Source: Acetivibrio sp. MSJd-27 (GTDB lineage: Bacteria > Bacillota > Clostridia > UMGS1840 > HGM11507). Taken from it: a stretch of DNA of 44,767 nucleotides. A model generated the notes under the pieces. It did not search any database, was not told where the DNA came from, and saw only the letters and a list, made by a program, of their open reading frames with translations. The DNA is taken from contig NZ_JAHLPV010000023.1 in NCBI RefSeq assembly GCF_018918095.1, forward strand, positions 1 through 44,767. The letters are read 5' to 3'. This document shows, one piece after another, positions 8,774 through 21,124 of the stretch. Made by a program: the position numbers and the translations under genes. How positions within the stretch are numbered: the stretch's first letter is position 1; every line of letters starts with the position of its first letter.

Positions 8774-8960
8774 ATTTGAGATAGAGGCCGCGTGGTTCAA
8801 GAGTAAGTATAAGGAGAATTTCACAGTTCCGGGAATTATACCGAAAGGGGATTCACGCCGAAGGAGGCAGGTTTGTGAAGACCGCTGTCCTGGTTATAAA
8901 GTTAAGAGCTTTATAATTGTCATCAGTTCTGATGGAGAGCTAGTGGAGAGCTATTTCAAA
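8774..8960 (+). promoter_or_regulatory. lysine riboswitch (L box)
   Basis: The P1 arms TTTGAGATAG (from 8776) and CTATTTCAAA (8951-8960) close the element. Inside are the L-box core strings in order: GATAGAGG, TTCAAGAGTA, GGGGATTCACGCCGAAG, a CTGG-containing hairpin and TGTCATCAG with GTGGAGAGCTAT at the end. Lysine binding stabilises this fold and favours the terminator at 8991-9018. The downstream genes asd, dapA and dapB are the expected regulon. Confidence 0.92.
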
Positions 8961-8990
8961 GATAAAGTAACCCTTTCATTACTTGTCTTC

Positions 8991-9054: not shown

Positions 9055-9135
9055 TTATAACAAGATGAAACGCTTTTGCGAACAGTGTGCGGCAAAAGCC
9101 ACCTTAAAAAGCGTTTCAGCCTTGCGAAGCGAGGT
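9055..9135 (+). repeat. dispersed repeat family 1, long copy upstream of asd
   Basis: The element contains its own inverted repeat, GAAACGCTTTT (about 9067-9077) against AAAAGCGTTTC near 9108-9118. The complement of 10337-10412 matches most of its length, so inverted copies bracket asd. It lies between the riboswitch terminator and the asd ribosome site and would be part of the mRNA leader. Confidence 0.75.
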
Positions 9136-9167
9136 TATTTCATTCTTTATTGTTTGGAGGATTTATT

Positions 9168-10259: not shown

Positions 10260-10360
10260 GCGTTATAACCTTGCTCATATGCCCACTGCTTCTGTAAGCA
10301 GCGGGCTCGGACTCAGAAGCGGACGGGGCGCAAATTCCCCGCTTTGCAAGGTTGAAACGC
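10260..10360 (+). other. large stem structure between asd and dapA
   Basis: Bases 10260-10274 pair with 10346-10360 (15 positions, one mismatch and one G-T). Inside are two further hairpins: a 10-bp stem from GCCC at 10281 to GGGC at 10106+200 (10103-10106 offset, i.e. 10303-10306), and CGGGG/CCCCG at 10324-10341. It has no trailing T-run, so it may stabilise or process the operon mRNA rather than terminate it. Its right arm overlaps the repeat at 10337. Confidence 0.6.
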
Positions 10361-10412
10361 TTGTATGCGGCTTTTGACGCACACGATGCGCAAAAGCGTT
10401 TTATCTTGTATA
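10337..10412 (-). repeat. dispersed repeat family 1, long copy downstream of asd
   Basis: The reverse complement aligns with 9055-9135 over the whole length, including CAAGAT, AAACGCTTTTGCG, the GTGTGCG segment, CAAAAGCC and the GCGTTTCA-CCTTGC end. The copies point toward each other across asd. This copy ends just before the dapA ribosome site. Confidence 0.75.
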
Positions 10413-20610: not shown

Positions 20611-20640
20611 AAAAAAGGAAGCCAACATGGCTTCCTTTTC
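20611..20640. terminator. intrinsic terminator in the serC upstream gap
   Basis: GGAAGCCA (20617-20624) pairs perfectly with TGGCTTCC (20628-20635). It has TTTT on the plus side and TTTTTT on the minus side. On the minus strand it follows the short ORF at 20676 by 40 bases. Bases 20360-20610 between it and the serC promoter hold only AT-rich palindromes (20536-20562 and CCGGAGC/GCTCCGG at 20573-20590), no gene. Confidence 0.75.
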
Positions 20641-20675
20641 CCCTGTCTGGGGATAATTTCAAATCTTTTTTCTTC

Positions 20676-20828
20676 TTAAAACTTAAACGCTTCGAAATAC
20701 TTCAATGTTTGTATTCCATCTCTTACGCCTGTGCGTTGTGGTAAAAAATTCACAAAATAAACATCAAAAAATATGCGGCTGGAGCCGTCTGCTGCCCTGC
20801 AATATGGTTTATCTGTCACTGACAACAC
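20676..20828 (-). CDS. possible 50-residue ORF downstream of a structured element
   Basis: A GTG start with AAGGAG 9 bases upstream opens a 50-residue frame ending 40 bases before a perfect intrinsic terminator. An overlapping ATG four bases upstream gives only seven codons and could instead be a leader peptide. The translation has no domain I recognise; it contains the string LPQRTGVRDGIQTLKYFEAF near the C-terminus. The coding status is uncertain. Context (structured RNA, ribosome site, short ORF, terminator) is the main reason to record it. Confidence 0.35.
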   Translation of the reverse strand: MLSVTDKPYCRAADGSSRIFFDVYFVNFLPQRTGVRDGIQTLKYFEAFKF

Positions 20829-20859
20829 TCATAAATTCTCCTTCAAAGGAATTCTCTCA

Positions 20860-21041
20860 TCCCGTTGAACCGATATTTTCTTTGCATAGATTGTTATTCA
20901 CCTTCAATAAGGGCTTGCCCCGTCATTCAACGAGGACAAGGGCACTGCATAGCCGTGCCGCGATCAGCGAGAGATTGCACTCCCGCTGATTGCGGATATG
21001 GACCCCGCCGCCTTAAGAGGCGTGGGACATCTTGCCCGCAG
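20860..21041 (-). ncRNA. candidate structured RNA, class unknown
   Basis: Read on the minus strand, the GC-rich segment folds into consecutive hairpins: TGCGG/CCGCA (21036-21040 with 20992-20996) enclosing a CGCC/GGCG stem; a 15-position stem (20982-20996 with 20959-20973, one mismatch); GCAC/GTGC; and CTTGTCCT against GGGGCAAG (about 20937 and 20915), which uses two G-U pairs. Those G-U pairs would be mismatches on the plus strand, so minus is favoured. It is unlike SRP RNA, tmRNA, RNase P RNA or a T-box as far as I can tell. The string CTGCATAGC-GTGCC on the plus strand vaguely recalls IscB-type omega RNAs, from memory only. Confidence 0.45.
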
Positions 21042-21087
21042 TTATAAGAACGATATTTCACTTTACTGAATAATGAGTTTCGGAACA

Positions 21088-21124
21088 TAAAAACCCCGGC
21101 TTCATCCAATCAATAAAGCCGGGG
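21088..21124 (-). terminator. terminator of the metal ATPase gene
   Basis: CCCCGGCTT (21094-21102) pairs perfectly with AAGCCGGGG (21116-21124), followed on the minus strand by TTTTTATG. It begins about 40 bases after the ATPase stop. Confidence 0.88.

Follow-up and report, generated by a model that had tools for sequence, protein, structure and literature searches.

Is the hairpin-rich sequence in the gap between serC and a metal pump gene a structured RNA in its own right, serving this one locus, or does it stand here as one instance of something more widespread? A sequence-only reading of the window (the whole stretch of 44,767 nucleotides analyzed here) had placed an unclassified structured RNA element at 20676-21060, followed by a ribosome site, a short reading frame and a terminator, and had offered three identities for it: a cis-regulatory RNA for a small protein, a trans-acting RNA, or the relic of a mobile element. 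By a genome-wide sequence search, the real repeat unit at the locus has sharp ends at window positions 20903-21046 and a length of 144 nt, and the element in the gap is one copy among many, not a single RNA gene. We consider it probable that it is a copy of a mobile repeat that is non-autonomous and has hairpin ends.

The unit is found at about 40 places in the 3.05-Mb host genome (G000), with 86-96% identity and in both orientations, and the total for that genome is about sixty dispersed copies of the hairpin-rich repeat. When the copies are aligned together with their flanks, they have a common start, TTCAATAAGG, and a common end, CAGTTATA, and the sequence outside is unrelated. The left end, whose exact matches in Table 1 were counted with the pattern TTCAATAAG-N4-20-NTYATTCAACG, is the best-conserved part. 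No open reading frame lies inside the unit. The adjoining 20660-20902 is unique flank that does not recur in the genome; thus the interval 20676-21060 does contain a repeat copy, but mixes it with unrelated sequence, and only 20903-21046 is the unit.

Table 1. Coordinates (window numbering) of the repeat copies, of the parts of the copy in the serC–metal pump gap, and of two nearby hairpins
Feature	Position	Strand	Remarks
Family-A repeat copy	20903..21046	-	40 genomic places, common boundaries, unrelated flanks, 163.7 bits
Left end, TTCAATAAG-(short hairpin GGGC..CCCC)-CGTCATTCAACG	20903..20932	+	58 in G000, 24 in G018, reversed-pattern control 0
Outer stem, 5' half (plus strand), GGACAAG	20934..20940		Helix 1
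Hairpin 2, GGCACTGC ATA GCCGTGCC	20941..20959		Helix 6
Hairpin 3, long stem seen in the sequence-only reading	20958..20995		Helix 5
Hairpin 4, core GAUGUCCC..CGCC/GGCGG..GGGUCCAU (minus strand)	20998..21030		Helices 2-4
Outer stem, 3' half (plus strand), CTTGCCC	21031..21037		Paired with the GGACAAG half
Right boundary, GTTATAA	21041..21047	+	90 right ends
Second window copy, distant, family-D-like	10264..10412	+	19.8 bits, E 0.0012
Third window copy, short, D-like	9055..9139	-	Match on the window minus strand
Perfect 12-bp terminator-like hairpin, outside the repeat	20613-20639		Stem search
Hairpin outside the repeat	21094-21124		Stem search

The signals around the element do exist: AAGGAG (minus strand, 20843-20838), a 7-codon frame (20832-20809), a 50-residue GTG frame (20676-20828) and the perfect terminator. 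Their presence favors an RNA unique to this locus, acting in cis or in trans and serving the 50-residue frame or the 7-codon leader. But Shine-Dalgarno site, frame and terminator lie outside the repeat, which is found some 40 times without these features, and the stretch with the reading frame does not recur, so that we regard a locus-unique RNA, including a cis-regulatory RNA for a small protein, as very improbable.

The strong consecutive stems that had drawn attention to the locus are real, both within the repeat and in the two hairpins outside it, and the 421-nt region folds modestly better than dinucleotide shuffles (z of -2.29 for the plus and -2.71 for the minus strand). The arms of hairpin 3 (20958-20973/20980-20995) are 16 nt long and 88% complementary. 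The stems are conserved in relatives. In 60 family-A-type copies, 91% of the cells pair in the fold, and slid versions of the fold pair only 39-50%. Compensatory changes, which the sequence-only reading had proposed to look for, alter 22 of 43 pairs on both sides, versus 12.6±2.1 in shuffles (0/500 reach the observed number), a control that is lenient because the copies are related. Helix 1, the outer stem, is 89.5% paired and has double-sided changes in 6 of its 7 pairs; in helix 5 (hairpin 3) they affect 10 of 14. As evidence for the fold, more weight falls on cases in which the outer stem has changed independently, to ACGACTT/AAGTCGT in a viral contig (L152) and to GGCAAG/CTTGCC at two other loci (L116 and L118), than on the shuffle control. 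The left hairpin also differs in sequence, with compensation, in other genomes, and its variants in single copies there include GGAAC-GAA-GTTCC, GGCGC-ACA-GCGCC and GGGCC-AAA-GGCCC.

Covarying secondary structure is thus present, and it could be the fold of an RNA or of single-stranded DNA. An alternative hairpin that uses the same CUUGUCC strand as the outer stem has nearly equal support; therefore, the element may alternate between the two, or the second hairpin may be there by chance. The remark that G-U pairs point to the minus strand holds across the 60 copies, in which G-U-type cells lean that way by 145 vs. 87, or 97 vs. 77 when the outer stem is left out; overall, the strand preference that these cells give is weak. 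The minus strand of the family-A copy (5' TATAACTGCGGGCAAG...CTTATTGAA 3') is treated here as the likely RNA, or sense, strand.

In Rfam 15, queried with the window and with copies of several subfamilies, there is no family for the repeat, in agreement with its being called unclassified; the only matches are a lysine riboswitch and tRNAs. A loose resemblance to HEARO/IscB omega RNAs had also been suggested. Size, multi-hairpin form and the motif behind that suggestion would favor a HEARO/IscB or TnpB omega-RNA, or the relic of one, and like HEARO the repeat is a dispersed structured unit of about 150 nt. However, the motif, CTGCATAGC/GTGCC, comes down to hairpin 2, GGCACTGC-ATA-GCAGTGCC, the HEARO covariance model (RF02033) has no match even at E<=10, and no accompanying nuclease is seen, with no obvious IscB candidate among the reading frames near loci L116-L122. 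TnpB was not found in the host genome or in four other carriers (G018, G154, G261 and G155), no copy lies at a TnpB locus found, and the arrangement of a TnpB reRNA, with TnpB in the genome and 5' of the RNA, was not found. We find an omega-RNA origin hardly credible.

The repeat belongs to a larger set of subfamilies. The host genome holds full copies of 144 nt, copies of 94-97 nt without hairpin 3 and a 53-nt copy with ends only; the internally deleted copies, 53 to 97 nt, retain both ends. Family B (about 118 nt in this genome) has the ends of family A and different hairpins, family C is about 176 nt long with an end near CCGATTTAAA, and family D reads TATAACGAGG...CTTGTTATAA. D ends in TATAAC..GTTATA, whereas A-C are without inverted repeats; the hairpin-4 core is common to all four. 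Across the family, units are 90-180 nt long, with several hairpins and two distinct ends. D-like repeats are abundant in the host genome too, and two of them lie in the window around asd and dapA: one between the two genes, ending shortly 5' of the dapA start codon, and one with the lysine-riboswitch region on one side and the start codon of asd on the other, in the orientation opposite to asd. The riboswitch itself (RF00168, 96.5 bits, window 8774-8961) is upstream of asd and dapA, and the asd gene flanked by D-like repeats is in the same operon.

Beyond the host genome, homologues occur across Clostridia, at 77-84% identity in other taxonomic families of the class. With a covariance model, relatives turn up in 38 of the 391 Clostridia genomes sampled, several of them multi-copy, and only as weak matches in 10 other genomes in a 398-genome sample of the phylum. 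The same architecture, in different sequences, is seen in those 38 genomes and in one viral contig from IMG/VR, where the copy with the fully changed outer stem (L152:9194-9337) sits among prophage tail genes, which suggests that phages carry the repeat. With the queries used for families A, C, D and E, plasmid and phage collections gave no match. Within the literature searched, which included work on REPs, REPINs and MITEs, we found no description of the repeat. The family thus appears to be uncatalogued, as a member of a kind, the short non-autonomous dispersed repeat, that is already known.

Does the repeat move? At a conjugative/ICE-like locus (L118, genome G084), it is missing in five relatives, with the empty site reading ...TATTTTTATGGAGG and the filled one ...TATTTTT[ CAATAAGG...GTTTTAT ]ATGGAGG. 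A second empty site is in the greA leader, filled in genome G376 versus its genus. In addition, four copies of the A and B types in the host genome are nested in the end of a D-like repeat, as CTTG-TT-[element]-TTATAA. The empty sites in relatives, together with the copies lodged inside a second repeat, show that the repeat is mobile. Of the three identities first offered for the locus, the mobile element is the closest, as an abundant repeat and not as a lone relic, and that earlier interpretation is partly supported, in favor of a repeat that moves and against a regulatory RNA of this locus that has a reading frame of its own.

The ends constrain how it might insert. TT precedes CAATAAGG in 97-100% of 103 left ends; 93-100% of 90 right ends have GTTAT, followed by A in 87%. 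The TTATA at the right boundary is nearly invariant and could be either the end of the element or its target. The nested copies interrupt CTTG|TTATAA and have TTATAA on the right in 4/4 cases, as a TTATAA-like target and duplication of TT would give; against a background of 52%, this is not decisive. Insertion sites resemble TT|A or TTATAA, inverted repeats are lacking, and any duplication is of at most 2 bp; since the empty-site relatives are only moderately identical, target and duplication are fixed only approximately. As insertion targets, terminators are only slightly enriched (p 0.04), and the upstream promoter signal is weak. Other repeats meet this one. In the host genome, copies at L042, L043, L081 and L112 (contigs C7, C4, C1 and C26) are interrupted by another miniature element, which has GCATTAGAG/CTCTAATGC as its ends and is flanked by TTAA in L042 and L043. 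In several copies (L010, L031, L037 and L110), a dispersed repeat of yet another kind (GCAGCCGCGCTTCGCACGCTGTTTTTTGAAACATGCAATT) directly adjoins the right end.

The copies are not oriented at random with respect to genes. Both neighbors are co-directional with the minus strand in 27 vs. 6 cases (p 3e-4), and 32/107 copies have a Shine-Dalgarno site plus start codon no more than 70 nt away on the side of the minus strand, vs. 6/107 on the opposite side (p ~2e-5), with gene calls by simple ORF heuristics and p-values that are somewhat optimistic because the families are pooled and a few loci are orthologous (L176/L208). Selection, a preference in insertion, or function could each lie behind this bias. 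One way to read it is as a mobile cis-acting RNA, spreading as a transposable unit, with its minus-strand transcript retained in 5' leaders and 3' ends and its fold modulating the neighboring genes through mRNA stability, termination, or protein or ligand binding. Besides the two orientation counts, the conservation of the hairpin-4 core across subfamilies, the lean of G-U-type cells to the minus strand and the D-like copies adjoining asd and dapA speak for it. Yet the copies have unrelated flanks and show no consistent downstream gene function, let alone a conserved position before genes of one function; the promoter signal is weak, insertion or purifying selection could yield the same bias, and family A alone has a start-codon bias of only 14 vs. 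4 (p 0.03). A regulatory RNA role is possible; as the explanation of the repeat, we think it rather unlikely.

Which enzyme could move the repeat? One candidate is an IS200/IS605 derivative of the palindrome-associated type, which the HUH Y1 transposase TnpA would move as single-stranded DNA. In its favor, the repeat lacks inverted terminal repeats and has asymmetric ends with subterminal hairpins at both, IS200-type tnpA fragments occur at contig ends in the host genome, and G018 has two Y1 genes. Against it, the IS200 ends in the host genome appear unrelated to those of the repeat; Y1_Tnp was not found in the carriers G376 (86% complete), G151 (complete) and G153; and conserved bases flank the insertion on both sides, which may not suit elements of this kind, inserted 3' of a fixed target of 4-5 nt on one side and duplicating nothing. 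We judge such a derivative unlikely. The tnpA fragments occupy five contig ends (L059, L061-L064), where two collapsed multi-copy insertion sequences break the assembly. No repeat copy is at, or overlaps, any Y1 or TnpB locus found, and with both missing from carriers, neither is a consistent partner.

Among known systems, the repeat is like the bacterial miniature elements of the MITE type that are non-autonomous, such as RUP, BOX, ERIC and Correia, in being short, non-coding, folded, dispersed in tens of intergenic copies per genome, and patchy across species. The difference is that families A-C have no terminal inverted repeats, and that the repeat shows no clear target-site duplication beyond possibly TT and no recognized parent insertion sequence. 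REPs and REPINs resemble the repeat in that an unpaired tag accompanies a hairpin (here CGTCATTC, which follows the left hairpin; CGTC is present), but they are single palindromes of 20-40 nt with a GTAG/CGTC tag, unlike this longer multi-hairpin unit. CGTC-tagged REPs likewise have no dedicated transposase, and the main text of that study does not mention Firmicutes or Clostridia (PMC3733652). No RAYT was found in the host genome, and no RAYT gene is flanked by the repeat. In G018 (loci L076, L078 and L060), a REP-like palindrome, GGCGATTCGTGAATCGCC, lies within hairpin 2 of two copies and also surrounds a RAYT-like Y1 gene.

In the non-autonomous mobile repeat that we favor, TTCAATAAG and CGTCATTCAACG bracket the left-end hairpin of a unit of about 144 nt, three more hairpins are enclosed by an outer stem, and the unit ends in NAGTTATA. 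An enzyme acting in trans would recognize the folded ends, as in single-strand or RNA-templated systems, and place the unit between genes, in AT-rich DNA, where the site reads TT|A or resembles TTATAA; the insertion would have no inverted repeats and would duplicate no more than TT. The minus strand would then usually be co-transcribed with neighboring genes, and the rarer copies in opposite orientation would be selected against, or insertion would be strand-biased. Against the mobile-repeat reading, the internal hairpins are conserved beyond the ends, more than a simple miniature element needs, and the candidate enzymes Y1 and TnpB are missing from carriers, with none at the copies. A more speculative extension, which we hold doubtful, is a mobile RNA-like superfamily in Clostridia, comprising at least families A-D, whose folded ends are read by an unrecognized recombinase or reverse transcriptase and which has been recruited repeatedly as orientation-specific leader RNAs; it would be the counterpart, in bacteria, of SINE-type elements that spread regulatory structure.

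What looked like an isolated oddity is a genome-wide family of covarying multi-hairpin repeats with asymmetric ends and no recognizable transposase, widespread and strongly biased to one orientation before genes. Finding the mobilizing enzyme could reveal a new transposition route, and leader copies such as the one before dapA could show whether a mobile structure rewires gene expression in these Clostridia. The same covariance model also picks up two more distant structured repeat types, of uncertain membership, which start TTTATCTTAGTCGG (G294, L193-L197) and TTTAACCGACGG (G261, L199-L204). At two loci (L049 and L050, in G068 and G036), a left-end-like sequence near position 1501 overlaps the 5' end of the ileS reading frame and apparently codes for N-terminal residues of the protein.
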